From: Sulfurospirillum sp. SCADC
Lineage (GTDB): Bacteria > Campylobacterota > Campylobacteria > Campylobacterales > Sulfurospirillaceae
Assembly: GCF_000743525.1 (NCBI RefSeq)
Contig: NZ_JQGK01000002.1
Coordinates: 62,001-126,000 of the forward strand
Length of the DNA stretch: 64,000 bases
Direction: 5' to 3'
Shown: piece by piece, positions 5,828 through 58,871 of the stretch
How positions within the stretch are numbered: position 1 is the first letter of the stretch
Layout: each line of letters begins with the position of its first letter
Translations under genes and position numbers: made by a program
The notes under the pieces: generated by a model
Database searches by the model: none
Seen by the model: only the letters and a program-made list of their open reading frames with translations
Told to the model about the DNA's origin: nothing

Positions 5828-5841
5828 CACCGAAAATTCCT

Positions 5842-5905
5842 TTACATGTAAAAGGACGATTTAACCTCTCTTTGGTTAAAATAAGATCAAATTATTTACA
5901 TGTAA
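5842..5905. repeat. Two TTACATGTAA palindromes in front of glyS
   Basis: Exact copies at 5842-5851 and 5896-5905, 54 bases apart; each is part of the 12-base TTTACATGTAAA. Between them lies a further inverted repeat, TTTAACC (5860-5866) and GGTTAAA (5874-5880) with a 7-base spacer. The second palindrome ends ten bases before the glyS ATG and so overlaps its leader. The arrangement could be operator-like; no ordinary terminator is visible here. Confidence 0.8.
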
Positions 5906-5915
5906 AGGTCGATCA

Positions 5916-7967: not shown

Positions 7968-7977
7968 TCCCTGTTTG

Positions 7978-8009
7978 GAGCCTAAATCCTAAGGTATTTA
8001 GGCTCTTTT
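7978..8009 (+). terminator. Intrinsic terminator after glyS
   Basis: A perfect 10-base-pair stem, GAGCCTAAAT (7978-7987) with ATTTAGGCTC (7996-8005), an 8-base loop and a TTTT tail. Confidence 0.88.
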
Positions 8010-8022
8010 ACTCCTTCAAAAC

Positions 8023-9711: not shown

Positions 9712-9718
9712 AACGCGG

Positions 9719-9724
9719 TATAAT
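9719..9724 (+). promoter_or_regulatory. Probable -10 element for the 9756-15156 gene run
   Basis: TATAAT begins eight bases after the preceding stop codon and lies 31 bases before the ATG at 9756, which has GAGGGG as ribosome-binding site. It is the only good promoter-like site before the overlapping genes that end with mcrC. Confidence 0.55.
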
Positions 9725-9755
9725 TGTCTGTATAAACTACGAAGAGGGGCTTTGA

Positions 9756-43915: not shown

Positions 43916-44584
43916 TCACATCGAAGGGGTTTTCACCATATAGCCAATACCTCTAATGTTGGTGATAAAATCTTCTTTCAGGTGACTTTTGAGACGATTG
44001 ACCTCTGTTCGGATGGTGGCTTCGTCGACGTCCATATCAAAATCATTCCATACGTTTTCTCGAAACATGTCGTAGCTACAGACAAATCCTCGGTTGTGGG
44101 TGAGGAATTGGATGATTTGAAGTTGTCGTTTGGATAAAACTTGGGGCTCTTCGTGAAAATAGAGCGTCATGGCATCACAATCAAAACTGTAGGAAGCGGA
44201 GAGTCTTTTGTGGTGCCTCTCTTTTTTGAGGGTTTTTGAAATGCGGTCGATTCTGATATTGAGCTCTTTGAGATGAAACGGTTTTTTCAGATAATCAAAA
44301 CAGCCAAGCTCAAACGCTCGTGATATATCTTCGATGTCAATGAGTGTTGAGATGAAAATAACAGGCATCACTTTTTTTTGCGCATGCAATGTCTCTAAAA
44401 TCGTTAATCCATCAATATTGGGTACGTTAATATCGAAAATCAGCAGGTCAAACCGCTCTTTTTCTAAGACGCTCAAACAGGCATTGCCATCTCGGATGGA
44501 TGTCATGGCGTGACCGATGGTTGAGAGGTATTTTGTGATCGATTCGTTGAGGAGAATGTCATCTTCTAAGAGTAAAATTTTCAT
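43916..44584 (-). CDS. OmpR-family response regulator partnered with the FIST kinase
   Basis: A 222-residue two-domain regulator: receiver at 1-120 with the acidic pair in LLEDDILL, the phosphorylated Asp in LLIFDINVPN and Lys in YLKKPFH; winged-helix DNA-binding domain at about 130-220 (DVDEATIRTEVNRLKSHL, closing in TNIRGIGYMVK). The start overlaps the kinase stop (ATGA), so the two are coexpressed. The pair faces away from the mop operon across a 480-base regulatory region and is a natural candidate to control it. That link is inferred from position. Confidence 0.9.
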   Translation of the reverse strand: MKILLLEDDILLNESITKYLSTIGHAMTSIRDGNACLSVLEKERFDLLIFDINVPNIDGLTILETLHAQKKVMPVIFISTLIDIEDISRAFELGCFDYLKKPFHLKELNIRIDRISKTLKKERHHKRLSASYSFDCDAMTLYFHEEPQVLSKRQLQIIQFLTHNRGFVCSYDMFRENVWNDFDMDVDEATIRTEVNRLKSHLKEDFITNIRGIGYMVKTPSM

Positions 44585-46470
44585 GCGTTCTCGATTTTAA
44601 ATTGGTACGAAAAGGATGTTATGTTTTCATCCGAATGCAGTGTAATTTTCACGTTTTCTTCCTTACAGATTCTTTTAACGAGGTTGAGTCCAAGTCCAAA
44701 GCCGTTTTGCGCCTCTTCTTCACGGTAGAACTCTTCAAAGATTTTCTCTGGTTTTTGAATTTTTCGCGAATGCGATGCAATGCAAAAATGACAATTATCC
44801 GCATCTTTGTAGAGAGAAACGATAATTTTTTCATTCTCAAACGTATATTTAATCGCATTGGTGAGGTTGTTGTCGATGATGCGTTGTAATTTGGTTTCGT
44901 TAAAGAAAATCATGGCGTCATCACAATCGGCTTTGAAACTAAGCATGGATTTTGCTTTATCCGCCACTTGGGCAAAAAAGTCGATACGAGACCGGACATA
45001 ATCGACCAAATCAATAGAGCGTTTCACATAGTGAATTTGATCTTTTTTCACCAAATAACTTAAATCATCGTACATCGAGAAGATGCTTTTGGCTGCGACT
45101 TCGATATTTTCCAAGTAGACACTTTTCCCAAACTCCATCTCATGCAGCTCAATACTGCTCATGATGACGCTTAAGGGCGTATTCATCTCATGCACGGTGT
45201 AGCGCAAAAACTGTTTGTGAGATGCCAAAAGGGTGTTGGAGTAGCGCATCTGCTTCTCTAAACGTTTGGACTGATCGTCATAATCGCGCGCACTTTGTTC
45301 AATCAAATGGGTCAAGGATTCAATGCTTTTAGAGTAGGGAGTGTTTTTTTTACTCTCCTCTTTGTGCGCGATGGTTGGGATGGAATCCACGGTAGAAGAT
45401 TCGCTTAAGGCAACTACGGTGAGCGTTTGGTTGAGAAGTTTGTTGTGACCGTTTTGGTGGTAAAACTCTGAGTAGGTAAAAAACCCTGAGGTTGCCGCTG
45501 TTTTTGAAAACGAACCGATGCCCAGTTTGATTAAAAAGGGCATAAACCGTCTTCGCGCCATACAGGAGAAGACATAATACGTTTCTGCGTTGATCGTGTG
45601 CAAGTTTTCTAAAACGTCTAGAGGATCTTTCATCAAAGACTCAGCATCACCAAAACCGATGCGGACTTTATCGCCTTCGCTAAAATTGCCGCTGTAGCTC
45701 AGGCTGCCATCCTCATGCTTAGCGATGACCGCTCGTGCCATGATGACACCGTGTTTTTCAAGGATAAGGGGAAATTCTGTTTGTGAGAAGTTTCCACCGA
45801 GGTATTTGTCGTAAAATTCTGCTGCTTTCATACCATCGATCAGGTAAACTCTGTTCTCCGTTACTTTCGTAATGGTATGCTTAAGCCCGATAGGTTTCCA
45901 GTCAAACTTATAATCGGTGGCTACATGTAAAATGTCAGAATTTAACGAAACACCGACCACACCTTCGCCTAAAAGCGTGTTTTGGGATGAAATATAGGTT
46001 TGCTCAAACTTGCCATTGTCGCCTGCCATGCCCCCACAAATCGGTATGGTCGGATCATACGATTCCACTCCTTTTAAAAACTCTTCGGCATTCATACGCG
46101 TGCCATCTGAAAAAAGAATGAGGAGTTTTGTGTTGGAACTTACCAAATCAGAGGCTATTTTGACACCGCATTGAAAGGAGTCTGCCATATTGGTGTAAGA
46201 GGTTTTGATACAGGTGTCTTCAAATATGCTGATGGAGATGACGGTTCTAAGCGTTGTGATCCGCTCACCAAAGATCTCTCCATCGGTGGTCGTACCAATA
46301 CAGATGGCATGGGGAATATGCGCAAGAATAACGTCGCTGATCTCCTGCAGTACCGTTTTTCCTTGCCCACAAAAGAGTTGGACTAAGACATTTTTTTCCA
46401 CTTCAAAAAGTGAAAAATCTATGATACTCTGCACTGAACCTGTTTCATAACAAAAATTGTACGTCTTCAT
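44581..46470 (-). CDS. Cytosolic FIST-domain sensor histidine kinase
   Basis: A 629-residue kinase from the ATG at 46470, which follows a GGGGGATGG ribosome-binding site; the frame extends further upstream without such a site. Residues 1-370 are FIST_N plus FIST_C (ICIGTTTDGEIFGE, CGGMAGDNGKF, VFSCMARRRFM), a fold thought to bind small ligands such as amino acids. A coiled linker leads to the dimerisation helix with the phospho-acceptor in RYTVHEMNTPLSVIMSS and a HATPase domain (NNLTNAIKYTF, GFGLGLNLVKRI). There is no membrane segment, so the signal is intracellular. The ligand may be an aldehyde, an amino acid or another metabolite linked to the mop pathway. Confidence 0.88.
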   Translation of the reverse strand: MKTYNFCYETGSVQSIIDFSLFEVEKNVLVQLFCGQGKTVLQEISDVILAHIPHAICIGTTTDGEIFGERITTLRTVISISIFEDTCIKTSYTNMADSFQCGVKIASDLVSSNTKLLILFSDGTRMNAEEFLKGVESYDPTIPICGGMAGDNGKFEQTYISSQNTLLGEGVVGVSLNSDILHVATDYKFDWKPIGLKHTITKVTENRVYLIDGMKAAEFYDKYLGGNFSQTEFPLILEKHGVIMARAVIAKHEDGSLSYSGNFSEGDKVRIGFGDAESLMKDPLDVLENLHTINAETYYVFSCMARRRFMPFLIKLGIGSFSKTAATSGFFTYSEFYHQNGHNKLLNQTLTVVALSESSTVDSIPTIAHKEESKKNTPYSKSIESLTHLIEQSARDYDDQSKRLEKQMRYSNTLLASHKQFLRYTVHEMNTPLSVIMSSIELHEMEFGKSVYLENIEVAAKSIFSMYDDLSYLVKKDQIHYVKRSIDLVDYVRSRIDFFAQVADKAKSMLSFKADCDDAMIFFNETKLQRIIDNNLTNAIKYTFENEKIIVSLYKDADNCHFCIASHSRKIQKPEKIFEEFYREEEAQNGFGLGLNLVKRICKEENVKITLHSDENITSFSYQFKIENA

Positions 46471-46950
46471 AAACCATCCCCCATGCTCATTAGCGCTTGA
46501 ATGAAAGATACCCAATACCAGCTTATAAGGAAGATATTTTTGAGCACAAAACTTTAAAATGTGTGCATTACATGTCAATAGATTACCTATTTATGCTTCC
46601 TAAATTTTTTTTTGATACGTTACGTTACAATCGATGCTATTGCTATATTCATGCTACATTCGTACTATATAATCTTCGCAGATAGTTAAAAAGTCAATCT
46701 AATAAAAATACATAAGTTATGGGAGGCCAAAAAATTCGATAGAACATGAATACCAAAGGTATCGGCGTATTTCATGGTGGGATTTAAGGGTGAGTTTTTT
46801 GACGATTCATGGTTGGTAATATGCAAAAAAGGCATATTAAGAGCATTTAACGTGAGATTTTCAAAAAGCTTATGTGCAAAAATATGCACATTTTGCATAT
46901 TTCTTATTTACATGTAAGAAAGTGCTGACAACTATTTAAGAGGGAAATAC
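46471..46950. promoter_or_regulatory. 480-base divergent regulatory region between FIST kinase and mop
   Basis: No convincing gene lies here. It contains a TATAAT at 46668-46673, a set of inverted repeats built on ATATGCA/TGCATAT close to mop (described separately), TTACATGTAA at 46908-46917 and a nine-of-ten variant at 46568-46577. The mop start is preceded by AGAGGGAAA. A 70-codon minus-strand frame at 46686-46898 has no family features and covers the repeats, so I read it as chance. Confidence 0.65.
46818..46900. promoter_or_regulatory. Cluster of inverted repeats upstream of mop
   Basis: Three perfect 7-base inverted repeats: AATATGC (46818-46824) with GCATATT (46832-46838); ATGTGCA (46872-46878) with TGCACAT (46885-46891); ATATGCA (46882-46888) with TGCATAT (46894-46900). 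The last two overlap. Spacers are 7, 6 and 5 bases. The shared ATGCA half-site indicates a repeated operator for one regulator. Confidence 0.6.
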
Positions 46951-49671
46951 ATGTTAAAAAGAACCTTAATCATTAATGGCGTTAAAACCACTTTGGTGAC
47001 AGACGCCGAGGAGAAACTATCCGATGTGCTGCGAAAACAGTTAGGACTCACAGGCACAAAAGTAGGCTGTAATAGCGGTGAATGCGGTACATGTACCGTT
47101 ATTTATAATGGCAAAGTTGTGAGATCGTGTATTTTAAAAATGAAAAAAATTGAAGACAATGATGAGATCATCACCATTGAAGGGGTCGGTACGAAAGATA
47201 AACTTCACCCACTTCAAGTTTCGTGGATGGTGCATGGTGCGGCGCAATGCGGTTATTGTACCCCTGGTTTTATTGTCTCTGCCAAAGGCCTTTTAGACCA
47301 AAACACCAACCCAACACGTGAAGAAGTACGCGATTGGTTCCAAAAAAACAAAAACCTCTGCCGTTGTACGGGATATATTCCTTTAGTGGACGCGGTAATG
47401 GACGCTGCAAAACTCATGCGCGGTGAAATTACCATCAAAGATATTTGGAAAGAGCTTCCTGAGGGCGCTTCGTTGGTGGGTTCAGAGTTTATTCGTCCCT
47501 CCGCACTTGCGAAAGTCATGGGAACATGGGATTTTGGAGCTGATTTGGGTCTAAAACTTCCACTCAATACCCTTCACGCCAAACTCGTTCAAGCCGAGGT
47601 TTCTCATGCCAATATTATCTCGATTGACACCGAAGAAGCGAAAAAAGTTCCCGGTGTTGTGGCAGTCCTTACCTATAAAGATGTCAAAGGAACGAACCGC
47701 ATCAATGGTTTGGCATTTCCTACCAATAAGGGCGATGGCTTAGATAGACCGATTTTGAATGATAAAAAAATCTTCCAATACGGTGATGCCATTGCGATTG
47801 TTTTAGCTGAAAATGAAAAAGCAGCTCATGCAGGTGTCGAAAAAGTCAAAGTAGAACTCGAAGTCTTACCGGCGTACATGAACGCACCTGACGCGATGGC
47901 AGATGATGCGATTGAGATTCACCAGGGTACTCCAAATGTCTACTTTACCAACCATATCAGTAAAGGAGCCGAAACCGGCCCTATCATGAAAGATGCACCT
48001 TTTGTGGTGGAAGATAGCTTCTATACGCAACGACAACCGCACTTACCGCTCGAGCCTGATGTTGGTTTTGCGTATGTCAATGATGAAGGTAAACTCATTG
48101 TTCACTCAAAAAGTATCGCACTGCATTTTCATGCGTTGATGATTGCGGAGGGTGTGGGCATGAAAGCCGAAGATGTTTTCATCGTTCAAAACAATACGGG
48201 CGCTACGTTTGGTTATAAATTTAGCCCAACGATGGAAGGCTTACTTGGAGTTGCAACCCTTGCTACGGGAAGACCAGTCTATCTTGAGTTTGATATGAAA
48301 CAACAAATCACCTATACAGGTAAACGTTCCCCATTCTGGACAACGATGAAAATGGCGGCGGACAAAAATGGCAAAATCTTAGCATTAGAATCTGATTGGA
48401 GTGTTGACCATGGTCCTTACTCCGAATTTGGTGACTTATTAACCCAAAGAGGTTTCCAATTTGGTGGAGCAGGATATATGATTCCTAATATTCGTGGTAA
48501 TGGACGAACCGTTTGTACGAACCACGGTTGGGGTTCAGCGTTCCGTGGATACGGTGCTCCTGAGATCATGTTCCCATCCGAAGTACTCATTGATGAATTG
48601 GCTGAAAAAGTCGGTATGGATCCGTTTGACTTCCGATATAAAAATATCTACAGACAAGGTGATACAACCCCAACAGGATGTTCTCCCGATGTTTTTTGTT
48701 TAGAAGAGCTGTTTGATAAAAGCCGACCAGTGTATGAATTGGCGAAAAAGACAGCAGCGAAAAAGAATGCCAATGCAGCAGCCGATAAAAAATACGGTGT
48801 GGGCGTTTCGGTCAATATCTATGGTTGTGGCTTAGATGGCCCTGACTCTTCTGAAGCGTGGGCGGAACTGACCAAAAACGGTGTTGCGGTCGGCAATTCA
48901 TGGGAAGATCACGGACAAGGTGCAGATATTGGCACGCTTACCTTTGCACATGAAACTTTGAGACCTCTTAACCTTAAACCAGAGCAAATTGATTTGGTGC
49001 TCAATGATATGACCAAAACACCCAACAGCGGTCCAGCAGGTGGAAGTCGCTCCAATGTGGTCACGGGAAATGCAACCGTTGTGGCATGTCGCAATTTGCT
49101 TGAAGCGATGAAAAAAGCAGATGGAACATACCGAACTTACGATGAGATGGTCGCCGAAGGAAGAGAGCTTAAATACATGGGTAAATGGACAGCACCATGC
49201 ACCGATACACCTCCAACCGATGGTCAAGGTAACCCGTTTGCGGCTTACATGTACGGTGTCTGCATCGCAGAAGTCGAGGTCGATACCAAAACGGGTAAAA
49301 CCAATGTTGAGAAAATGACACTCGCATCGGATGTCGGTACGATCATCAATAAACTCGTTGTCGATGGACAAATGTATGGTGGTTTGGTTCAAGGTATCGG
49401 TCTAGCACTCACTGAGGACTTTGATGATCTTAAAAAACATACCACCTTGACAGGGTGCGGTATCCCAAAAATCAAAGATGTTCCCGATAATCTTGAGCTA
49501 ATGTATACCGAATACCAACGACCAAACGGCTTGCTAGGTTCTGCAGGTGCAGGTGAAATGCCTTTGGCAGCGCCTCATGCGGCGATTATTAACGCGATTT
49601 ACAATGCGTGCGGTGCGAGAGTAACACACTTACCAGCACGTCCTGAGAAAGTTCTAGCAGCGATGGCGTAG
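46951..49671 (+). CDS. mop: Molybdenum aldehyde oxidoreductase (Mop type, xanthine oxidase family)
   Basis: A 906-residue one-chain molybdenum hydroxylase without an FAD domain. Plant-type [2Fe-2S] ligands are C40, C45, C48 and C60; the second cluster uses C100, C103, C137 and C139; the catalytic Glu is E869 in GAGEMPL. These positions match, as I recall them, those of the structurally known Desulfovibrio gigas aldehyde oxidoreductase, which carries molybdopterin cytosine dinucleotide. Other blocks are RQPHLPLEPD and GWGSAFRGYGAPE. It oxidises aldehydes to acids in the cytosol and passes electrons through the two clusters, probably to the fused flavoprotein/ferredoxin protein encoded next. 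It opens a ten-gene locus for its own redox partner, cofactor synthesis and unexplained modification chemistry. Confidence 0.95.
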   Translation: MLKRTLIINGVKTTLVTDAEEKLSDVLRKQLGLTGTKVGCNSGECGTCTVIYNGKVVRSCILKMKKIEDNDEIITIEGVGTKDKLHPLQVSWMVHGAAQCGYCTPGFIVSAKGLLDQNTNPTREEVRDWFQKNKNLCRCTGYIPLVDAVMDAAKLMRGEITIKDIWKELPEGASLVGSEFIRPSALAKVMGTWDFGADLGLKLPLNTLHAKLVQAEVSHANIISIDTEEAKKVPGVVAVLTYKDVKGTNRINGLAFPTNKGDGLDRPILNDKKIFQYGDAIAIVLAENEKAAHAGVEKVKVELEVLPAYMNAPDAMADDAIEIHQGTPNVYFTNHISKGAETGPIMKDAPFVVEDSFYTQRQPHLPLEPDVGFAYVNDEGKLIVHSKSIALHFHALMIAEGVGMKAEDVFIVQNNTGATFGYKFSPTMEGLLGVATLATGRPVYLEFDMKQQITYTGKRSPFWTTMKMAADKNGKILALESDWSVDHGPYSEFGDLLTQRGFQFGGAGYMIPNIRGNGRTVCTNHGWGSAFRGYGAPEIMFPSEVLIDELAEKVGMDPFDFRYKNIYRQGDTTPTGCSPDVFCLEELFDKSRPVYELAKKTAAKKNANAAADKKYGVGVSVNIYGCGLDGPDSSEAWAELTKNGVAVGNSWEDHGQGADIGTLTFAHETLRPLNLKPEQIDLVLNDMTKTPNSGPAGGSRSNVVTGNATVVACRNLLEAMKKADGTYRTYDEMVAEGRELKYMGKWTAPCTDTPPTDGQGNPFAAYMYGVCIAEVEVDTKTGKTNVEKMTLASDVGTIINKLVVDGQMYGGLVQGIGLALTEDFDDLKKHTTLTGCGIPKIKDVPDNLELMYTEYQRPNGLLGSAGAGEMPLAAPHAAIINAIYNACGARVTHLPARPEKVLAAMA

Positions 49672-49751
49672 AGCTTTACATGTAAGGCGTGCGATACGTG
49701 TGTATCGCACGCCTGATTTTGCTTTTAACACGATATTTTGAGGAAAACAGA

Positions 49752-52115
49752 ATGGATTTAGACGCATTATTAGAGATGAGCAATCAGTGTATTCATTCAG
49801 AACCTCCCGTATGCATGGCATCGTGTCCGGTTCATATGGATGTGATTGCTTTTGTTACTGAAATTGAAAAAGGTGATTTTGCTAAAGCGTATAAGGTGAT
49901 GGAAGCCAAAATACCCTTTAGCAGACTTATTGGAAAAATCTGCGACCACCCTTGTGAGAGTCACTGTGTACGAAAAGAGGTGGGTGGAAGTATCCGCATC
50001 AGTGAACTGGAAAAAACGGCGATTGATTTAGGGTATACGAGTCCTAAAAAACCACTACTTATGCCCAAAAACAAAGGGACGGTTGCGGTTATTGGCGGAG
50101 GGCTTAGTGGGTGCGTTGCAGCGATTGAGCTGGATAAAAAAGGCTACAACGTCACTATTTATGAAAAAACAGACCGTTTAGGAGGAAGCCTTTGGGCGTA
50201 TGAGGGGCAAGACTTAGAGAGTGCCATCATCGAAGAAGAGCTCTCCGTGATTGCAAAAAAAGGCATTACGGTTTGGTATAACACGGAAGTGACTGAAGCA
50301 AATCTGCAAACGTACATTGAAAAATACGATGCGCTCTATTTAGGAACAGGGGCGTGGAGTAAAGCGTATGCCATTCATCCTGAGACCTTTCAAGTCAATG
50401 ATACTTCCTTATTTATCGGCGGCACACTTCAAACGCAAAACCATTCTAGTATCTTTTCGGCAAGTTCAGGCAAAAGAGCGGCGGTCTCTATTGACCGCTA
50501 CATTACCAAAACCTCGATGAGTGCTTCTAGGGAGCGCGAGGGCGTTTTTGAAACGAAATTAGACTATAAAATTGATACGGTACAACCCATTGTAGAGGTG
50601 GCTAAAACAGCCTCTGTTTATTCTGAAAGCGAAGTGCAAGAAGAGGCAAGTAGGTGTCTTAAATGCCAATGCGATGCCTGTATTAAAGCCTGTGTGCATA
50701 TGCAACGTTTTTCCATTACGCCTGATCGTTATATCCGAAGCATCAATCATAACGAGCGCATTGTTTTAGGAAACAGAAGCGCTAATTTGATGATCAACTC
50801 CTGTACGGAGTGTGGTTTGTGTAAAGAGGTGTGTCCTTTTGGCATTGGTATGAAAGATATTATCCACGCTACAAGACAGAGTATGGTAGAGCGCGGTAAA
50901 ATGCCCATTTCGGCGCATGATTTTGCCCTTAAAGATATGCAGTTTAGCCACAGCGATTATTTTTCACTCGTACGCAAACAACCGAGCAAAGAGCAATCCA
51001 AAAACCTTTTTTATTATCCCGTCATTGCTTTTTCGCAGTATGCACGAGGTTTGTACAAAGGCTCTGGAAAAACGGGCTATCTTTTTTACCCAGGTTGTCA
51101 GCTGAGCTCCACGCACACGGATTATATTGGCGCTATTTACAAATATTTGGTGGGCGTGATCAAAGAAAAAGAGGCTGATAACGATGTCGGTCTTTATCTG
51201 GGGTGTTGTGGCGCACCTGCGGATTGGGCAGGAAGGCTTGATCTGATGCCTGAAAGTGTTGAAAAAATACATAAAACGTGGGAAGAGATGGGTGAGCCGA
51301 CCTTCATTTTAGCCTGTTCGAGCTGTGCTTCGACATTTGAGAAATACTTGCCGATGATTAAGACCATCTCGTTATGGGAAGTGTTTGCCACCTACGGTTT
51401 GCCCGAGGTGGATATTAAAAAAGGTAAGCGTGAGCTTTGCATTCACGATGCCTGTGCGACGAGGCATAATGCGAAAATTCATGAAAGTGTACGAAGCATT
51501 GTGAAAACTTTGGGTTATAGCGTTGAAGAGCTTGAATACGCCAAAGAGAAAGCAAAATGTTGTGGTTATGGCGGATTGGTCGCTTGTGCCAATCCTGAGC
51601 AGGCGGAAGATTTTGTCCAAGACCGCGCCCATGAGAGTGAACACGATGTGCTGGTCTATTGCGCGATGTGCAAAGATATGTTGGTGAAAGGAAATAAACG
51701 GGCGTACCACATTTTGGACATCATTTATGGCAATGAGATCAACCCTGATGCGCCTCAAAAAATGCTAACGCTTTCCGAGCGCCAAAACAATCGCAAACGC
51801 CTCAAACAGCAGTTGCTCAAAGAGATTTGGAACGAAGAGGAGAGCGATATGAGCAAGACCTATGACTTTACCCTGCATCTTTCCGATGCGATCATTGCTT
51901 TGATGGAGAAGCGATTTATTTTGCTGAGTGATGTTGAAAAAGTGGTGGAACACTCGCTTACATGTAAAGAGCGATTTTACAATCCTGAAACCTTGGATTT
52001 TCTCGCACGCCTGAGAGTGAACAATGTGACCTTTTGGGTGAAATACGAAGAGCATGGCAGTGACATCACGGTAAAAGATGTCTACTCACATCGCATGGAA
52101 GTGGTGGAGGACTGA
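49752..52115 (+). CDS. GltD-like flavoprotein fused to a dicluster ferredoxin/CCG protein
   Basis: A 787-residue fusion starting at ATG 49752 behind AGGAAA. The N-terminal part has GltD-type iron-sulfur cysteines (CMASCPVHMD, CDHPCESHC), then a Rossmann flavin site VAVIGGGLSGCVAAIELD near residue 110. The middle has ferredoxin cysteines (CLKCQCDACIKAC and CTECGLCKEVC). The last third has two CCG domains as in GlpC/HdrD (YPGCQ with GCCGAP, and the pair KCCGYGG with CAMC). A C-terminal 90-residue extension looks unrelated. It should carry electrons between the aldehyde oxidoreductase and NAD(P)H, quinone or disulfides. Family members I recall as pyridine nucleotide-disulfide oxidoreductase/dicluster-binding proteins travel with Mop in Desulfovibrio (DVU_1558 neighbourhood). 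Confidence 0.88.
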   Translation: MDLDALLEMSNQCIHSEPPVCMASCPVHMDVIAFVTEIEKGDFAKAYKVMEAKIPFSRLIGKICDHPCESHCVRKEVGGSIRISELEKTAIDLGYTSPKKPLLMPKNKGTVAVIGGGLSGCVAAIELDKKGYNVTIYEKTDRLGGSLWAYEGQDLESAIIEEELSVIAKKGITVWYNTEVTEANLQTYIEKYDALYLGTGAWSKAYAIHPETFQVNDTSLFIGGTLQTQNHSSIFSASSGKRAAVSIDRYITKTSMSASREREGVFETKLDYKIDTVQPIVEVAKTASVYSESEVQEEASRCLKCQCDACIKACVHMQRFSITPDRYIRSINHNERIVLGNRSANLMINSCTECGLCKEVCPFGIGMKDIIHATRQSMVERGKMPISAHDFALKDMQFSHSDYFSLVRKQPSKEQSKNLFYYPVIAFSQYARGLYKGSGKTGYLFYPGCQLSSTHTDYIGAIYKYLVGVIKEKEADNDVGLYLGCCGAPADWAGRLDLMPESVEKIHKTWEEMGEPTFILACSSCASTFEKYLPMIKTISLWEVFATYGLPEVDIKKGKRELCIHDACATRHNAKIHESVRSIVKTLGYSVEELEYAKEKAKCCGYGGLVACANPEQAEDFVQDRAHESEHDVLVYCAMCKDMLVKGNKRAYHILDIIYGNEINPDAPQKMLTLSERQNNRKRLKQQLLKEIWNEEESDMSKTYDFTLHLSDAIIALMEKRFILLSDVEKVVEHSLTCKERFYNPETLDFLARLRVNNVTFWVKYEEHGSDITVKDVYSHRMEVVED

Positions 52116-52116
52116 G

Positions 52117-52323
52117 ATGGAAACGAAAACCGAAACAACAACCACATGGATGTGTGACAAATGCCACAAAGCATTGGTATCACAAAAGGTTAAAGTGCGT
52201 TATCTTGAAGGTAATTTTGAAGTGGAACTTTTAAAATGCCCTACCTGTAACATGGTTTTTATTAGCGAAGATTTGGCTTTAGGGAAAATTCTTGAAGTCG
52301 AAAAAAGCTTGGAGGACAAGTAG
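52117..52323 (+). CDS. Small zinc-ribbon/rubredoxin-like redox protein (DVU_1557 type)
   Basis: A 68-residue protein from the ATG at 52117, set by GGAGG upstream and by the preceding stop two bases earlier. It has two CxxC knuckles, CDKC (about residues 13-16) and CPTC (about 40-43), 27 residues apart, suitable for one zinc or iron ion. It matches my memory of the DVU_1557 redox protein family of mop loci. Its role may be electron transfer or carrying a cofactor intermediate; neither is shown. Confidence 0.75.
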   Translation: METKTETTTTWMCDKCHKALVSQKVKVRYLEGNFEVELLKCPTCNMVFISEDLALGKILEVEKSLEDK

Positions 52324-52324
52324 C

Positions 52325-53065
52325 GTGTTGACATGTAATGTCTATGAAAGCAGCTGTATGCACGAAGCTACGGGGGAAACCTTGCGTCCGGGGGGATTTA
52401 AACTCACCGATCAAGCGGTTCGCTTTTGTGGCTTAAATGAACATAATCATGTGCTCGATCTAGGCTGTGGCATGGGCGCAACGGTTTCGTACCTTTATGA
52501 AAATTATGCGATTAAAGTGGTGGGAATTGATCCATCCTCGAAGTTGTTAAGTCTTGCAAAGGCGAAAAATCCTTTTGCAACGTTTATTGCAGGATCGGGG
52601 GATGCGCTTCCCTTTGTCACTAAAAGCTTTGAATGTGTTTTTGCTGAGTGTACGCTTTCTCTGATGAATGATTTACATGTAACGTTAAAAGAGGTCTATC
52701 GAGTTTTGGATACAGGCGGTTGGTTTGTCATCCACGATGTGTATGCGAAAAACCCTGAGAGCCTAGATGCGATGGATAATTTCTCCATCACATCGTGTAT
52801 GCGAGGGATGCACGATCTGCTCTCTTTAAAAGAGATGTTGGAAAAAGTTGGCTTTGAAATCATGCTTTTGGAAGATTGCTCTGAGCTACTCAAAGAGCTT
52901 ATGGTCAAAATCATCTTTTCGCACGGTTCGATGGGGGCTTTTTGGGGTAAAACCATCGAAGGTGAAAAAGCGCAAACGTGTTGCTCTTTTGAGCAAAACA
53001 TTAAGCAATGCAAACCCGGTTATTTTATGTTAATTGCTAAAAAAGGAGATGAAAACAATGGATGA
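52325..53065 (+). CDS. SAM-dependent class I methyltransferase (DVU_1556/TrsM type)
   Basis: A 246-residue protein from GTG 52325, one base after the preceding stop with GGAGG nine bases upstream. Motif I is VLDLGCGMG, followed by VVGIDPSS, the post-I acidic loop and a UbiE-like VYRVLDTGGWFVIHD block. The N-terminus carries CNVYESSCMHEATGETLRPGG and the C-terminus TCCSFEQNIKQCKPGYF, so cysteines may bind a metal or thiol substrate. Methyltransferases in this locus accompany a radical SAM protein. The acceptor molecule is unknown. It overlaps the next gene by 8 bases. Confidence 0.82.
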   Translation: MLTCNVYESSCMHEATGETLRPGGFKLTDQAVRFCGLNEHNHVLDLGCGMGATVSYLYENYAIKVVGIDPSSKLLSLAKAKNPFATFIAGSGDALPFVTKSFECVFAECTLSLMNDLHVTLKEVYRVLDTGGWFVIHDVYAKNPESLDAMDNFSITSCMRGMHDLLSLKEMLEKVGFEIMLLEDCSELLKELMVKIIFSHGSMGAFWGKTIEGEKAQTCCSFEQNIKQCKPGYFMLIAKKGDENNG

Positions 53066-53504
53066 TGTATCGCTACGACTCTTTAAACTCTCATCAGCAG
53101 GGTTTTGCTGTGCGCAGATCATGTACAAATTGGCGCTTGAAGACGAAGGTTCTTGCAATGATGACTTAGTGCGCTCTGCACAAGGGCTCTGCCGTGGCAT
53201 CGCCGATACGCAACAAACCTGTGGCGTACTCAGTGGTGGCATTGGCGTTTTAGGATTGTATGCGGCAAAAGCAAAAGAGGAAGAGAGTGCTAATGAAGAT
53301 TTTGCACCGATGGTTCAGGCGTTTCACGAATGGTTTCAAACAGAATGTGGCTCAACGCAGTGTGCCGCGCTGATTGGCGTGAGAGATTTTCACAGTGGCG
53401 ACCAAAGTTTCAAACCCATTTGCGCCGGAATCATCCAAAAAGCGTATGTCAAAGTCTATGAGATTTTGCTAGAACATGGCTATGACTACGGAAATAGAGC
53501 GTAA
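53058..53504 (+). CDS. C-GCAxxG-C-C family protein (DVU_1555 type)
   Basis: A 148-residue protein from ATG 53058 (AAGGAGA nine bases before). The C-GCAxxG-C-C pattern is recognisable although the first motif is altered: GFCCAQIM near the start, then GLCRGIADTQQTCGVLSGGIG, TECGSTQCAAL and PICAGII. These cysteine-rich helical proteins are predicted to bind a metal cluster, often next to redox enzymes, and no member has an agreed function. The start overlaps the methyltransferase gene and the end overlaps the radical SAM gene, so it belongs to the same translational unit. Confidence 0.82.
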   Translation: MDDVSLRLFKLSSAGFCCAQIMYKLALEDEGSCNDDLVRSAQGLCRGIADTQQTCGVLSGGIGVLGLYAAKAKEEESANEDFAPMVQAFHEWFQTECGSTQCAALIGVRDFHSGDQSFKPICAGIIQKAYVKVYEILLEHGYDYGNRA

Positions 53505-54831
53505 TGCAATGATGCACACGGAGAGTTTATGTCCGATCTGCTTGCGCGTGCTTGAGGCGTTTATTGTTGAAGAAAACGGGAATGCTTCCATGCTTAAAAC
53601 TTGCCCAGAACACGGATCGTTTGAGACGGTTTTGTGGCGAAGCAAAACGCCGATGAATGAGTGGATACGTACCAAAGAGAGAGCGTATATTAAAAATCCT
53701 ATCACAGAGGTTGACAAAGGGTGTCCGTTTGATTGTGGTTTGTGCAGTGCGCACCGACAACACACCTGCACGGCACTGATTGAAGTAACGTCACGGTGTA
53801 ATCTTAGTTGTCGTTTCTGTTTTGCAGACGCGATGGATGCTAAAAGCAATGACCCGACCTTGGAGCAGGTACGGTTTCAGTTTGAGAGCATTTTGAAAGT
53901 CTCAGGCAGATGCAATATCCAACTCTCAGGCGGTGAGCCAACGGTAAGAGATGATTTGGCGGAGATTATTCGCATCGGTGTAGAACTAGGCTTTCCATTC
54001 ATTCAGGTTAATACCAATGGTATTCGCATGGCTAAAGATGAAGCCTATGTCAAAGCCTTAAAAGAAGCGGGACTGAGTTCTCTTTTTTTACAATTTGATG
54101 GCATTGATGATAGGATTTATGAAACATTACGAGGGCGTGCGCTTTTTGAGCTTAAAGTTAAAGCGATTGAAAATTGCCAAAAGTATGGCATTGGCGTTGT
54201 GCTCGTTCCCACCATCGTTCCTCATGTGAATGTGAAGAGTATCGGTGAGATTATCCGTTTTGGCATCAGCCATTCTCCTACGGTTCGAGGGGTGCATTTT
54301 CAGCCTGTGAGTTATTTTGGACGGATTCCAGAGCCTCCCAAGGATGAGGATAGAATCACCTTGCCTGAGGTAATGGAGCATATTTGCGAACAGATGAATG
54401 GCATGGTGGAGATGCAAAGTATGCAACCTCCAGGGTGTGAAAATGCGCTTTGTTCGTTCAATGGCAATTACCTTATTGAAGAGGGGACATTAAAGCCTGT
54501 AAGCAAACGCTCCTGCTGTTCAACCACTGTAGAAAAAGCTGAAGAGGGAGCGGACAAAGCCAAAGCTTTTGTGGCACGCAATTGGTCATACCAAAAACAA
54601 GCCAAAGAAGAAAAACTCTCCGATTGGGACAAAATCTTAAATGCTATTGCCAACAACACTTTTAGCCTCTCAGGTATGGCGTTTCAAGATGCGTGGAATG
54701 TCAATTTGGAGCGGATTCGGGATTGTTGTATTCATGTCTCCACGGCTGATGGAAGACTGATTCCTTTTTGTATGTACAACATCACCAACATGGACGGGAT
54801 GTCACTTTACCGAGATGCAAAGAGGGCATGA
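53476..54831 (+). CDS. Radical SAM protein of the mop locus (TrsS type)
   Basis: A protein of up to 451 residues. An N-terminal zinc-binding part (LCPICLRVL, CPEHGSF, then GCPFDCGLCSAHRQHTC) precedes the radical SAM core with C108, C112 and C115 in RCNLSCRFCFAD. LSGGEPTVRDDL is the GGE SAM site. C-terminal cysteines (PPGCENALCSF, KRSCCST, RDCCIH, FCMYN) suggest an auxiliary cluster. It resembles the radical SAM (seleno)protein family that accompanies mop genes; here the special position is an ordinary codon, since no in-frame TGA is seen. The reaction is unknown. The start may be ATG 53476 or 53509; the first overlaps the preceding gene by 29 bases. Confidence 0.85.
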   Translation: MAMTTEIERNAMMHTESLCPICLRVLEAFIVEENGNASMLKTCPEHGSFETVLWRSKTPMNEWIRTKERAYIKNPITEVDKGCPFDCGLCSAHRQHTCTALIEVTSRCNLSCRFCFADAMDAKSNDPTLEQVRFQFESILKVSGRCNIQLSGGEPTVRDDLAEIIRIGVELGFPFIQVNTNGIRMAKDEAYVKALKEAGLSSLFLQFDGIDDRIYETLRGRALFELKVKAIENCQKYGIGVVLVPTIVPHVNVKSIGEIIRFGISHSPTVRGVHFQPVSYFGRIPEPPKDEDRITLPEVMEHICEQMNGMVEMQSMQPPGCENALCSFNGNYLIEEGTLKPVSKRSCCSTTVEKAEEGADKAKAFVARNWSYQKQAKEEKLSDWDKILNAIANNTFSLSGMAFQDAWNVNLERIRDCCIHVSTADGRLIPFCMYNITNMDGMSLYRDAKRA

Positions 54832-56132
54832 TGCAGGTTACACCGCTGGAAGACTGGATAATTGAGCGTACACACCTTGCGCATAAAAGCCAAGAGGCTT
54901 TGAGAGCATATCAGCTTGAAAAACTCATTCACACCTTAGCGTATGCCAAAGACAAAAGCCGATTTTATAACGAAAAATTAAAAGAGACTGACCTAAATTC
55001 TATTACCTCACTGGGGGATTTTGAGCAAATTCCTTTTACAAAGCCTTCCGATATTAAACACAATGCTCATGACTTTTTATGTGTTTCTGCCCATGAGATA
55101 GAGCGCATTGTAACCCTCAACACTTCAGGTACCACAGGCGATGAAAAGCGCCTCTTTTTTACGCATGAAGACCTAGAAGAGACCATCGACTTTTTTCAAT
55201 ACGGCATGAATTGTGTGGTGGAAAAAGGTGACAAGGTAATGGTACTGCTTCCAGGGTCTGCGTTTGGTAGCATCGGGGATTTGCTCAAAAAAGCTCTTTG
55301 GCGCTCTGGCATTGAGTGCGTTGTTCATGGTCTTTTGCAAGACATTGAAAAAACGGCGGCGTGCATTGAAGAACATCACATTACCTGTATTGTAGGCATT
55401 CCGATGCAAGTGCGCTACCTTAGTCTTATGAAACCTGAACTGTTTGAGCGACACATTCGCAAAGTGCTTTTAAGTACCGACTATGTCCCCGATGTACTCG
55501 TCAAAACCCTCAGTCGTAACGGTACATGTAAGGTTTTCAACCACTACGGCATGACCGAAATGGGCTATGGCGGAGGCGTGGAGTGTGAATGCCTGGGTGG
55601 CTACCACCTACGAGAAAACCATCTGTATTTTGAAATTATCGACCCAGAAACTGGCAAACTTGTGAGAGATGGCGAGTATGGTGAGGTGGTTTTTACCACG
55701 CTGAATCGCCAAGCGATGCCTTTGATTCGCTACAAAACGGGCGATAGGGCGCGGTTTTTAACAAAGCCTTGTGCGTGCGGTACGTTTTTGCGAACCATGG
55801 AAAAAGTGCAAGGGCGCATGGAAAACAGAGTTTTTATCCATGGGCATGAAATTCACCTAAAAGCGTTAGATGAAATCCTTTTACACTTTGATTCTATTTT
55901 AGATTATACGCTGAGCGTGGAGGAAAATAATACCTTACATGTAAAGCTCATTCTTGCAAATAAAGAGCGCTCAGTAGCGCTTAAAGAGGAGGTCATTAGA
56001 CGCATTCGGGAGCATTTTCCTTTTGCGTTTACACTTCGGATCGACGCCCAAGAAGATGATCGTTCACCTAAAATAACCCGTAGCATGATCAAACGAACAT
56101 TACACGACAACAGACAAGGAGCAAAGGTATGA
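54828..56132 (+). CDS. PaaK-like adenylate-forming ligase (DVU_1553 type)
   Basis: A 434-residue protein started by the ATGA overlap with the radical SAM gene (a second ATG follows directly). The AMP-binding P-loop is TLNTSGTTGDEKR, followed by FNHYGMTEMGYGGG, VVFTTLNRQAMPLIRYKTGDRARF and the closing MENRVFIHGHEIH and RSPKITRSMIKR segments of phenylacetate-CoA ligase relatives. It should activate a carboxylate as adenylate and pass it to CoA or another thiol. An acid produced by the aldehyde oxidoreductase is an obvious candidate, but a role in building a cofactor is equally possible. The loop KPCACGT adds a possible metal site. Confidence 0.85.
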   Translation: MMQVTPLEDWIIERTHLAHKSQEALRAYQLEKLIHTLAYAKDKSRFYNEKLKETDLNSITSLGDFEQIPFTKPSDIKHNAHDFLCVSAHEIERIVTLNTSGTTGDEKRLFFTHEDLEETIDFFQYGMNCVVEKGDKVMVLLPGSAFGSIGDLLKKALWRSGIECVVHGLLQDIEKTAACIEEHHITCIVGIPMQVRYLSLMKPELFERHIRKVLLSTDYVPDVLVKTLSRNGTCKVFNHYGMTEMGYGGGVECECLGGYHLRENHLYFEIIDPETGKLVRDGEYGEVVFTTLNRQAMPLIRYKTGDRARFLTKPCACGTFLRTMEKVQGRMENRVFIHGHEIHLKALDEILLHFDSILDYTLSVEENNTLHVKLILANKERSVALKEEVIRRIREHFPFAFTLRIDAQEDDRSPKITRSMIKRTLHDNRQGAKV

Positions 56133-57163
56133 AAACCATCGTAGAACACATTGTAGATAGTTTAAATGAACAACACGAAATCGTTACGGCAACCATATTG
56201 CACAAAAGTGGTTCAGCGCCTAGAGAAGCGGGCACGAAGATGGTGATTCGCAAAGATACGTCCATTGAAGGCACGATTGGGGGTGGCACTTTGGAAGCCA
56301 TGGCGATGCAATTAGCCCCTGAGGTGTTTAAAACCAAACAGAGTTCCATCGAAGAGATTGAACTGACCGATGATGACGCAAGAGCTTCGGGTATGGTGTG
56401 TGGTGGCGAAGTCAGCGTGTTGTTGGAGCACATCGATGCGCTCGATATTGCGCAACTCAACATCTATCATAAAGCCAAAGAGCTTAAGGCATTGGGTACG
56501 GATTTTATTATGATCACAAACATTTCGCAGACGAACAGGCGTGTGAATGGCAAACATAAATGGATCTGCACTGAGGCGGATCTGTTTGGCGAGAAGGACA
56601 AAGAGGTACAAGGCATTGTGCAGGATCTTCGGGAAAATTTTTACCATGTCAAATTTCATTTACATGTAGGCAAAAATCGTTACATGATCGAGCCTTTTTA
56701 CGCGATGGATCGGCTCTACATCGTGGGAGCTGGGCATGTTTCTCAGCAAATTGCCTTACTCTCCAAATCGCTTGGGTTTTACACGGTTGTCATTGATGAT
56801 AGAGAAGCCTTTGCCAATCAAGAGCGTTTTCCCTCCGCCGATGAAATTCATGTGGTCTCTTCGACATATGAGGGATTGCTTCAAAAAGTGGGGATTCCGC
56901 CTAACAGTTACATTGTCATCGTGACCAGAGGCGTTGATAAAGTCGTGTTGGAGCAAGCCCTTCACATGCGCGCCAAATACATCGGGATGATTGGGAGTAA
57001 AACCAAACGAAATTATGTGTATGCTGAGCTGTTGAAAGAGGGATTTGCGCAACAAGCGTTAGATGAGGTGCATTGTCCTATCGGTGTGTCTATCAATGCG
57101 CAAACGCCTGAGGAGATCGCCGTTAGCATCGTTGCTGAATTAACCCAAGTGAAAAGAAGTTAG
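56129..57163 (+). CDS. xdhC: XdhC-family molybdenum-hydroxylase maturation factor
   Basis: A 344-residue XdhC/CoxI protein overlapping the ligase gene by ATGA. The N-terminal XdhC domain has HKSGSAPREAGTKMVI and GTIGGGTLEAMA; the C-terminal Rossmann domain has LYIVGAGHVSQQIALL and the family closing IGMIGSKTKR with CPIGVSINAQTPEEIAVSI. XdhC proteins bind the molybdenum cofactor, promote its sulfuration and insert it into xanthine-oxidase-type enzymes. In this locus the client is Mop. Confidence 0.93.
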   Translation: MKTIVEHIVDSLNEQHEIVTATILHKSGSAPREAGTKMVIRKDTSIEGTIGGGTLEAMAMQLAPEVFKTKQSSIEEIELTDDDARASGMVCGGEVSVLLEHIDALDIAQLNIYHKAKELKALGTDFIMITNISQTNRRVNGKHKWICTEADLFGEKDKEVQGIVQDLRENFYHVKFHLHVGKNRYMIEPFYAMDRLYIVGAGHVSQQIALLSKSLGFYTVVIDDREAFANQERFPSADEIHVVSSTYEGLLQKVGIPPNSYIVIVTRGVDKVVLEQALHMRAKYIGMIGSKTKRNYVYAELLKEGFAQQALDEVHCPIGVSINAQTPEEIAVSIVAELTQVKRS

Positions 57164-57166
57164 ACG

Positions 57167-58273
57167 ATGACAAAGCGTAGTATCGGTGTTTTGATTCTTG
57201 CCGCTGGGTATTCGTCGCGCATGCACGATTTTAAACCCCTCTTGCCTTTTGGAAAAACGAGTGCATTAAAACGGCTTATTTTGACCTACCAAGCGCATGG
57301 AATAGAGTCTATTTACGTGGTCGTTGGGCATCGCCAAGAAGAGATCAGAGAGGTCTTAAAAGAGGAAAAGGTTACGATTGTTTACAATGAGGATTACGAT
57401 CAAGGGATGTTTAGCTCGATTCAAACAGGGCTTCGAGCGATGGATGAAACACTGAGTGCATTTTACATGCAACCTGTGGATATTCCGCTCATCAAAGCTC
57501 AAAGCCTTGAGCGGTTGTTTGAGGCGTATGCAAGCACGCGCAAAGGGGTCATTTACCCAACATTTTTGGGGCATAAAGGGCATCCTCCACTCATTGATAA
57601 GAAATATAAAGCGCAGATTTTAGCCAGTAACAGCGAAGGTGGACTTAAAAAAGTGCTCGAAGCGTTTCAGGATGATGCTTTACATGTAAACGTCTGCGAG
57701 CAGTCGGTTTTAATGGATATGGACACGAAGGAAGATTATGAAAACCTCCTGCGCTACGAAGCGTTGAGCGCGCCCAATAAAGAAGAGTGTTTGGCGATGA
57801 TGCTTCAAAACGAGGTGCCACCCCACATCATCAAGCATTGCGAAGCGGTGGAAAAAATGGCGTGCAATCTGCATGAACAGATCGCCTGTTTTGGGATTGG
57901 CATCGACAAAGATGCTTTAAGTGCAGCGGCGTTGCTGCATGACATTGCGCGGAGAGAAAAAAACCATGCGCTGGTGGGTGCGCAAAAGCTTCGCGCGATG
58001 GGCTACGATGCCATTGGTGATCTGATCGCAACACACATGGACATTGACGTCGATGTGAATGCGCCGATCAGTGCGCATGAACTGCTCTTTTTAGCCGATA
58101 AATTGGTCGACGAAGATGAGGTGTGTGGTTTTGAAAAGCGCTTTATTAGGGCATTTCAAAAATGCGAAGGCAACCTCGAAGCACAACGTAACATCACCCA
58201 ACGCTTAAATGCCACACGCATGATTATTTCCAAGATCGAAAAGCTTACATGTAAGGTGTTTCCTTATGGTTGA
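57167..58273 (+). CDS. MocA-like cytidylyltransferase fused to an HD domain (DVU_1551 type)
   Basis: A 368-residue two-domain protein. Residues 1-195 are a MobA/MocA-type nucleotidyltransferase: ILAAGYSSRMHDFKPLLPF with the Lys, MQPVDIPL as the metal-binding motif and FLGHKGHPPL. This half should form molybdopterin cytosine dinucleotide, the cofactor of Mop-type enzymes. Residues about 205-368 form an HD hydrolase (IKHCEAV, LLHDIARREK, DLIATHMDI, LADKLV), with complete metal ligands. The fusion suggests control by a nucleotide or phosphoester hydrolase. TTACATGTAA occurs at 57680-57689 and 58245-58254. It overlaps the phosphatase gene by 8 bases. Confidence 0.88.
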   Translation: MTKRSIGVLILAAGYSSRMHDFKPLLPFGKTSALKRLILTYQAHGIESIYVVVGHRQEEIREVLKEEKVTIVYNEDYDQGMFSSIQTGLRAMDETLSAFYMQPVDIPLIKAQSLERLFEAYASTRKGVIYPTFLGHKGHPPLIDKKYKAQILASNSEGGLKKVLEAFQDDALHVNVCEQSVLMDMDTKEDYENLLRYEALSAPNKEECLAMMLQNEVPPHIIKHCEAVEKMACNLHEQIACFGIGIDKDALSAAALLHDIARREKNHALVGAQKLRAMGYDAIGDLIATHMDIDVDVNAPISAHELLFLADKLVDEDEVCGFEKRFIRAFQKCEGNLEAQRNITQRLNATRMIISKIEKLTCKVFPYG

Positions 58274-58847
58274 AAAAGTCTATCTGCTTCGTCATGGGCA
58301 TGTTGATAACGGAAGTGAGAAAAGGTATTTGGGGCGTACGGATGTGCCACTGGATGCGTTAGGATTAGAGCAAGCACAAGTGTTCGGTGATTATTTTAAG
58401 GCGATTCCTTTTGATGCCATTTTTACCAGTCCTTTGAAGCGTTGCGTGCAAACGACACAGATGCTCTCTGAGAAATTTCAGATTGTGGAGGCATTGACTG
58501 AGATCGATATGGGGGATTGGGAAAATGTTCCGATGGCAGACATTCAGTCATGCTATCCTAAACTGTATGCGCAACGAGGTGAAAATTTGGAGTACTTTAC
58601 CCCACCCAATGGTGAGAGCTTTCGCATGATGGCACAGCGTGTGAGGCAGGCATTTGAGAAAATCGTACAGAGTGGTGATGGAACCATCATCATCGTTGCC
58701 CACGCAGGAGTCAATCGCATGATTCTCTCACATCTCTTTGGCATTGAGATCAATGACATGTTTAGCATTGTCCAACCGTTTGCGTGTGTCAATGAATTAA
58801 CATGGGATAGGGAACGTACGCAGTGGGAGTATCGAAACGTGTTGTAA
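58266..58847 (+). CDS. Histidine phosphatase family protein of the mop locus
   Basis: A 193-residue phosphoglycerate-mutase-like phosphatase. The catalytic LLRHGHVDN motif is at residues 7-15, TSPLKRCVQTT supplies Arg, and IVAHAGVNRMIL the second His; the EIDMGDWE segment carries the acid. It is close in layout to CobC (alpha-ribazole phosphatase), and might act on a nucleotide-loop or cofactor precursor. It is the last gene of the mop run and overlaps the MocA-HD gene by 8 bases. A two-sided hairpin follows. Confidence 0.85.
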   Translation: MVEKVYLLRHGHVDNGSEKRYLGRTDVPLDALGLEQAQVFGDYFKAIPFDAIFTSPLKRCVQTTQMLSEKFQIVEALTEIDMGDWENVPMADIQSCYPKLYAQRGENLEYFTPPNGESFRMMAQRVRQAFEKIVQSGDGTIIIVAHAGVNRMILSHLFGIEINDMFSIVQPFACVNELTWDRERTQWEYRNVL

Positions 58848-58871
58848 AGAGGCTTTATTGACAAAGCCTCT
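58848..58871. terminator. Bidirectional terminator between mop locus and CNNM gene
   Basis: AGAGGCTTT (58848-58856) pairs with AAAGCCTCT (58863-58871) around ATTGAC: nine perfect pairs. It lies between convergent genes and is followed by T-rich sequence only weakly on either side. Confidence 0.75.

Follow-up and report, generated by a model that had tools for sequence, protein, structure and literature searches.

A ten-gene block around a Mop-type aldehyde oxidoreductase in Sulfurospirillum, with a Tes-like radical SAM enzyme and a candidate low-throughput branch

The window analysed here is a 64,000-nucleotide stretch of Sulfurospirillum sp. SCADC (contig NZ_JQGK01000002.1), in which ten genes fill positions 46951-58847 of the plus strand. 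Their order, from Mop to a histidine phosphatase, is that given by the original prediction, and the tight packing that it described is also borne out. The features of the locus are as follows.

43916..44584, minus strand: response regulator, linked to the block but outside the unit (it remains by the empty site in genome G264, locus L131)
44581..46578, minus strand: FIST-like sensor histidine kinase, divergent neighbour (FIST assigned by inspecting the sequence)
46951..49671, plus strand: Mop, molybdopterin-dependent aldehyde oxidoreductase with two [2Fe-2S] clusters and molybdopterin cytosine dinucleotide (MCD), without a flavin domain (NF045668; 1DGJ and 1SIJ alignments; E869)
49685..49714, plus strand: 13-bp perfect hairpin in the gap behind mop, found by folding; it may terminate transcription in part or stabilise the 3' end of mop mRNA
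49752..52115, plus strand: diclust, a protein with Fer4_20, FAD/Rossmann, 4Fe-4S dicluster and CCG domains (NF045663, 994 bits; Pfam domains)
52117..52323, plus strand: DVU_1557 family CxxC...CxxC protein, DUF7479 (NF045645, 97 bits; PF24292)
52325..53065, plus strand: DVU_1556 family class I SAM methyltransferase, ArsM-like (NF045667, 252 bits; the GTG start at 52325 is uncertain)
53058..53504, plus strand: DVU_1555 family C-GCAxxG-C-C protein (NF045669, 152 bits; PF09719)
53476..54831, plus strand: TrsS, Tes-family radical SAM enzyme, Cys form (NF045646; 7TOL homologue)
54828..56132, plus strand: DVU_1553 family PaaK-like AMP-forming ligase (NF045666, 473 bits)
56129..57163, plus strand: XdhC-family maturation factor of the aldehyde oxidoreductase (AOR) (NF045664, 418 bits against a cut-off of 350)
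57167..58273, plus strand: MocA-type nucleotidyltransferase fused to an HD domain, putative MCD synthase (NF045665, 435 bits against 315; TIGR03310, 143 bits; HD)
58266..58847, plus strand: CobC-like histidine phosphatase (TIGR03162, 160.4 bits, just under the cut-off of 162.9)
58848..58871, strand not assigned: hairpin where the phosphatase gene and the CBS gene converge, read from the sequence

Eight of the nine junctions overlap or almost touch. Spacers measure 1 nt between diclust and CxxC and between CxxC and methyltransferase, and 3 nt between XdhC and MocA-HD, while the overlaps comprise 8 nt (methyltransferase/C-GCAxxG), 29 nt (C-GCAxxG/TrsS), 4 nt (TrsS/ligase and ligase/XdhC) and 8 nt (MocA-HD/phosphatase). 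The mop/diclust junction is the only spaced one, with 80 nt that contain the first hairpin. The hairpin behind the phosphatase likely marks the end of the transcription unit. Across the window no riboswitch was found (zero Rfam matches), and a sigma-70 promoter scan returned no excess over shuffled sequences.

Nine of the ten genes match curated NCBIfam models over cut-off, the exception being the phosphatase, which is weakly conserved (44 of 193 residues invariant). The gene set is thus already catalogued, with matched models named after DVU_1551, 1553, 1555, 1556 and 1557 that follow locus order here; this agreement with Desulfovibrio vulgaris is one of locus tags in five model names. DVU_1559 is listed as an aldehyde oxidoreductase (PMC10920352), and the literature search found no paper that explains a gene set of the DVU_1551-1559 type.

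The block behaves as a unit of inheritance. Among 397 Campylobacterota genomes, the 16 with an over-cut-off match to Mop are also the 16 with one to TrsS. In the Sulfurospirillaceae (29 genomes) the ligase, C-GCAxxG protein, methyltransferase, MocA-HD and XdhC share a single distribution: 18 genomes have all five and the other 11 have none. The co-occurrence check proposed with the original prediction, run here, did not refute it. Three genera contain both states (g1, with G264; g3, with G164 versus G173, G347 and G410; g4, with G377 versus G194), and gene order is fixed in 23 further loci, those at contig ends being visible in part. In G264 the CBS gene and the sensor kinase lie about 0.2 kb apart with the module absent, making this empty-site relative a natural control. 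Inspection by eye revealed no sign of the module around other Tes-like genes in four Campylobacterota genomes (L109-L113). A contig search for cross-phylum synteny matched only Sulfurospirillum-like contigs, viral contigs yielded nothing, and no Mop-TrsS cluster appeared among the matches listed from plasmid and phage searches. Plasmid loci of Cetobacterium and Ilyobacter carry a diclust relative; no shared pathway is claimed for them, because the Cetobacterium methyltransferase and C-GCAxxG matches are weak.

Wherever a locus extends far enough, the sensor kinase adjoins the block, which it likely regulates. The kinase was rejected as a member, since it remains in G264 and G194 without mop; in G194 and G164 it stands beside a tungsten-type AOR gene without the module.

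The D. gigas enzyme is a long-studied model of the molybdenum hydroxylases, and Mop of the present locus resembles it closely. The protein (906 aa) matches NF045668 over residues 3-905 with 1616 bits against a cut-off of 1100, and aligns over its full length with the crystal-structure enzymes of D. desulfuricans (1DGJ) and D. gigas (1SIJ). As originally predicted, the canonical residues are in place: eight [2Fe-2S] cysteines (C40, C45, C48, C60, C100, C103, C137 and C139) and the catalytic glutamate, exactly at 869. XdhC and MocA-HD fall into families responsible for MCD synthesis and its delivery, and both exceed their curated cut-offs, which agrees with their predicted role; judged from MocA-HD and from the Mop homologues, Mop probably binds MCD. 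The radical SAM enzyme, methyltransferase, ligase and cysteine-rich proteins, as also predicted, are not needed by any known Mop maturation.

The hairpin that sets mop apart from the nine downstream genes is a new observation. It is the top terminator-like site of the region and folds in 18 of 18 orthologous gaps, with a stem whose sequence varies, and it is proposed to act as a partial terminator or as a 3' stabiliser of mop mRNA. Codon adaptation is 0.63 for mop versus 0.52-0.58 for the module genes, the 69-codon CxxC gene excepted. In S. multivorans fermenting pyruvate, a condition in which H2 arises, Mop is 142-fold up and a top-ten protein (PMC6242987).

Since Mop is devoid of flavin, earlier work looked for a flavin-bearing partner and used flavodoxin as a stand-in; an aldehyde-to-H2 chain has been reconstituted (PMC10223205). 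The adjoining diclust gene is a candidate for this partner: it lies next to mop in every locus compared, and its domain content together with this adjacency suggests that the product may accept electrons from Mop. The diclust protein has 25 cysteines invariant across 23 sequences. Against this reading, D. gigas flavodoxin serves as acceptor in vitro. The partner has been pursued by docking and reconstitution, and we know of no work that ties it to the adjoining gene.

TrsS matches NF045646 with 682 bits against a cut-off of 490 and falls below the cut-off of the Tes model NF045702 (385 versus 450 bits). No in-frame stop that could encode selenocysteine occurs in 16 of 16 over-cut-off matches. 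Ligand sets were taken from 7TOL and then checked for invariance by alignment; the rubredoxin site (C19/C22/C43/H46), the N-cluster ligands (C83/C87/C90/H93) and the radical SAM cysteines (C108/C112/C115) are kept, as are the C-terminal cluster cysteines, whose exact ligand assignment is inferred. Judged by these residues, TrsS is a Tes-family enzyme with all four metal sites. It is probably not a pterin methylase, in spite of its Pfam match to PF23545, which bears the HMPTM pterin methylase name. A pterin link through the HMPTM zinc ribbon was dropped because MJ0619 is a tetraether synthase whose claimed pterin role was not reproducible (PMC9433317). By analogy with Tes, the target of TrsS should be an sp3 C-H bond, and its C-terminal Fe-S cluster should serve as in Tes. 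In the region of the second lipid pocket, about 75 residues separate the aligned blocks versus about 121 in 7TOL; the predicted structure (mean pLDDT 48) is too poor to judge this hydrophobic pocket.

In the methyltransferase, C120 and C169, the equivalents of ArsM Cys174 and Cys224, lie 49 aa apart in 23 of 23 sequences, and C46 lies near the position of Cys72 without being clearly aligned. ArsM cut-offs are missed by a wide distance (PRK11873, 62 versus 263 bits; NF040539, 74 versus 240 bits). The same cysteine pair is also kept in methyltransferases that partner Tes, and in haloarchaea and Mycolicibacterium relatives of the methyltransferase stand beside Tes-like enzymes without Mop, which indicates that the chemistry of this enzyme pair is not intrinsically tied to Mop. 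In the CxxC protein, C26, C29, C54 and C57 are invariant; the predicted structure of the C-GCAxxG-C-C protein (pLDDT 54) is too poor to use. A CoA-type ligase would suit a pathway that processes a substrate at least as well as one that makes a factor.

The best explanation is of a single operon, kept or lost as a whole, centred on aldehyde oxidation by a D. gigas-type Mop. XdhC and MocA-HD would make MCD and deliver it, and diclust would take the electrons, filling the flavin slot missing from Mop. TrsS, the ArsM-like methyltransferase, the PaaK-like ligase and the two cysteine-rich proteins would form a low-throughput branch, whose product would be a small factor for Mop or its electron-transfer partner rather than the bulk aldehyde. 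The hairpin would let Mop accumulate far above the helper proteins. As a whole this explanation is tentative, somewhat short of an even chance. A more specific version, in which TrsS and its partner assemble, with the ligase and cysteine-rich proteins, a hitherto undescribed organic redox factor (possibly S- or Se-bearing) that carries electrons between Mop and diclust, is distinctly doubtful.

Among the three options of the original prediction, a dedicated factor is favoured over a substrate pathway. There, a particular compound would be made or altered by TrsS and the methyltransferase, Mop would oxidise its aldehyde group, the ligase would activate the acid and the kinase would sense the compound. 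Such a substrate pathway draws on a PaaK-like ligase that scores over its curated cut-off, on the constant kinase neighbour, on the occurrence of the enzyme pair without Mop elsewhere and on the unexplained aldehyde source in Sulfurospirillum (PMC6242987). Each turnover of TrsS or of the methyltransferase presumably costs SAM, however, and such steps are unlikely to keep pace, at growth rate, with an enzyme among the ten most abundant proteins. The pathway is further weakened by G194, where the aldehyde slot beside the same kinase type is filled by an unrelated AOR without TrsS or the rest of the module, and 15 of the 16 TrsS-positive genomes carry this second AOR as well. It is rather unlikely, though the nearest contender to the factor branch.

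Handling of thiophiles, in which the methyltransferase and TrsS act on As, Se or S at the cysteine pair and either protect Mop, whose Mo site arsenite blocks, or make an organometalloid, is improbable. In D. gigas Mop, arsenite acts as an inhibitor where the substrate would sit (PMC10223205), an arsenosugar-type locus in the same genome shares a diclust paralogue, and both distal As(III)-binding positions are kept; yet the methyltransferase scores far below ArsM, its third cysteine lacks a clear match, the block has no ars gene and the ligase is left unaccounted for. Modification of Mop itself, as protein or cofactor, which the original prediction also offered, fits the strict co-inheritance with Mop and the cofactor genes but is very improbable, given that related Mops purified and crystallised from Desulfovibrio, compared here as proteins alone, are described with the ordinary cytosine-dinucleotide cofactor (PMC10223205), that Tes homology indicates an sp3 carbon substrate and that the MJ0619 pterin role was not reproduced (PMC9433317).

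Under the factor reading, a well-studied enzyme class would have missed one component throughout. The constant position of diclust beside mop makes the flavin-partner question directly testable, and TrsS represents a Tes-family member outside known lipid biosynthesis, one that strict co-inheritance links to a single enzyme.

With the Mops of D. gigas (1VLB/1SIJ) and D. desulfuricans (1DGJ) the Mop of this locus shares full-length homology, the Fe-S cysteines, Glu869 and a single chain without a flavin domain; the literature on those enzymes has flavodoxin as acceptor, whereas the present locus combines Mop with a radical SAM module and with diclust as the flavoprotein. The DVU_1551-1559 set (NF045645, NF045646 and NF045663-NF045669) comprises the same families, in the same order as far as locus tags tell, and the NF045646 family also includes selenoproteins, in contrast to the Cys form here. 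Tes/GDGT-MAS (MJ0619, 7TOL) shares with TrsS the rubredoxin site, the N-cluster with its histidine, the radical SAM site and the C-cluster cysteines; TrsS differs in its sub-threshold Tes score, in being about 46 residues shorter ahead of the last conserved block, and in an invariant Cys347-Cys348 seen in none of the Tes-like sequences aligned. The ArsM-ArsS and ArsL-ArsM pathways likewise combine a radical SAM enzyme with an ArsM-like class I methyltransferase bearing the two As(III)-cysteine positions, whereas the methyltransferase here forms its own family, leaves ArsM cut-offs unmet and has no arsenic genes nearby. As with Rhodobacter XdhC and E. coli MocA/PaoD, XdhC and MocA-type proteins stand beside the enzyme that they would serve; here MocA is fused to HD, and the radical SAM enzyme, methyltransferase and ligase have no known role in those maturation systems.

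As originally predicted, all ten genes of the aldehyde oxidoreductase locus are found on the + strand, and nine of the ten proteins, the phosphatase being the exception, match curated NCBIfam models in profile searches.

Ten-gene block: 46951-58847, + strand, from gene calls in the window. NCBIfam models matched over cut-off, in gene order:
Mop, molybdopterin-dependent aldehyde oxidoreductase: NF045668
diclust, flavin/dicluster protein: NF045663
CxxC protein, DVU_1557: NF045645
methyltransferase, DVU_1556: NF045667
C-GCAxxG-C-C protein, DVU_1555: NF045669
TrsS, Tes-family radical SAM protein: NF045646
PaaK-like ligase, DVU_1553: NF045666
XdhC: NF045664
MocA-HD, DVU_1551: NF045665

The DVU locus tags in the model names follow the gene order in the window, which supports the set DVU_1551-1559 named in that prediction; DVU_1559 is listed as an aldehyde oxidoreductase in PMC10920352. 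Because models exist for all but the phosphatase, the gene set has already been recognised by curators. No paper describing what the set does turned up in full-text literature searches, and TrsS is named in one review, there only as a listed selenoprotein family.

Mop and TrsS exceed their cut-offs in an identical 16 of 397 Campylobacterota genomes, all Sulfurospirillaceae. Searching 29 genomes of this family for the ligase, the C-GCAxxG-C-C protein, the methyltransferase, MocA-HD and XdhC recovered all five in one and the same set of 18 (including one partial C-GCAxxG and one partial XdhC match) and none of them in the other 11, bearing out the co-occurrence that the original prediction had put at stake. 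Among the genomes searched for diclust, its matches over cut-off show the same pattern. Presence of the block varies inside three genera, which implies more than one inheritance event, and gene order is invariant across all loci compared, some of them partial, with a contig end inside the block. The genome G264 lacks the module: there about 0.2 kb separates the CBS gene from the sensor kinase, the two genes that border the block in the window; the unit therefore runs from mop through the phosphatase. The FIST-like kinase and its response regulator, considered as members, were rejected as mere neighbours because both are retained at this empty site.

Mop aligns over its whole length with its counterparts from D. 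desulfuricans and D. gigas; the Fe-S cysteines are conserved, and Glu869 falls at precisely that residue number. Its cofactor is accounted for by XdhC and MocA-HD. The D. gigas enzyme lacks flavin, and an aldehyde-to-hydrogen chain has been rebuilt in vitro with flavodoxin as its putative partner (PMC10223205). A domain search of diclust, encoded directly 3' of mop, shows an FAD-binding region, a CCG domain and Fe-S domains of two kinds, and 25 of its cysteines are invariant in the orthologue alignment; gene position and domains lead us to propose it as the natural electron acceptor of Mop. The mop-diclust junction is the only non-tight one in the block; a perfect hairpin of 13 bp lies in its gap and ranks first among the terminator-like sites of the region. 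Hairpins of similar size, differing in stem sequence, occur in 18/18 orthologous gaps folded, and codon adaptation is higher in mop than in the module genes, the 69-codon CxxC gene excepted. The simplest reading of these sequence features is that Mop would be produced in large excess over the module proteins. The S. multivorans orthologue, SMUL_2101, increases 142-fold in abundance during pyruvate fermentation and ranks within the ten most abundant proteins; its aldehyde source is given as unknown (PMC6242987).

In G194, a genome without Mop or TrsS, the kinase and regulator adjoin a gene for a tungsten-type aldehyde:ferredoxin oxidoreductase; G164 has an additional kinase copy that likewise comes after the end of one, and in two Mop-positive loci one lies just past the phosphatase.

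Extracted loci with a tungsten-type oxidoreductase gene, either beside the kinase (Mop absent or second copy) or immediately after the Mop operon:
L132, 10323-14824
L134
L007, 14752-17262
L013, 14771-17371

Nearly all family genomes carry this oxidoreductase. Given this wide carriage and the kinase's place beside an unrelated enzyme, aldehyde oxidation seems to be the common denominator, and it is Mop, not aldehyde oxidation in general, that the module accompanies. Like radical SAM enzymes in general, TrsS presumably uses up SAM at each turnover. This cost, together with the pattern just described, speaks against TrsS as a bulk supplier of Mop and favours a factor made in low amounts. We tentatively suggest, as a possibility somewhat short of probable, that the TrsS branch may make such a factor. 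The structures predicted for TrsS and the C-GCAxxG-C-C protein were poor.

ArsM is the closest outside family of the DVU_1556 methyltransferase in profile searches. Of the three cysteines with which CmArsM binds As(III) (PMC12608789), two have counterparts in all orthologues, C120 and C169; the cysteine at the first of these positions is missing from five other methyltransferases compared. Tes-like radical SAM genes are immediately followed by a methyltransferase gene in Salinirubellus, two Haloarcula species, Halorarius and Mycolicibacterium, while in Halalkalicoccus the gene ahead of the methyltransferase carries no annotation beyond that of a short hypothetical. DVU_1556 is the best family, just under cut-off, for both Tes-partner methyltransferases scanned. 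Those haloarchaeal and Mycolicibacterium neighbourhoods contain no annotated Mop gene, so the pair exists away from Mop too.

Such pairs on haloarchaeal and Mycolicibacterium plasmids (L116, L117, L119, L120, L121, L122, L124) often lie near DUF547, redoxin or DUF3179 genes. A separate locus in the window's own genome (L114, G000:C3:58000-74000, 2288-10795) encodes arsenosugar-type glycosyltransferases (TIGR04282/TIGR04283 fused), a rhodanese-like protein, two TVP38-like proteins, a diclust paralogue of the dicluster/CCG type and a protein of 993 aa in which radical SAM, ArsM and MbdU-like domains are fused. A Cetobacterium plasmid cluster (L060, 13575-19166), without Mop or TrsS, combines a methyltransferase, a C-GCAxxG-C-C protein, a diclust relative, rhodanese and TVP38.

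Elsewhere in Campylobacterota, two tandem Tes-like genes occur in another family (L034 and L113, G233:C31:1-14000), one match having an in-frame TGA, possibly selenocysteine, and further Tes-like genes lie beside small membrane or lipoprotein genes without the Mop module (L109, L110, L111, L112).

The nearest solved structures to TrsS are 7TOL/7TOM, the M. jannaschii tetraether synthase (Tes), formerly called a pterin methylase, a role that PMC9433317 was unable to reproduce; its reaction, an sp3 C-C coupling, proceeds through a C-S bond with an auxiliary cluster (PMC9433317). TrsS is not filed as Tes because its score falls under the Tes cut-off. In the alignment the ligand pattern is conserved at each of the four metal sites of Tes; TrsS is shorter in the stretch ahead of the last conserved block and, unlike the aligned Tes-like sequences, has an invariant Cys347-Cys348 pair.
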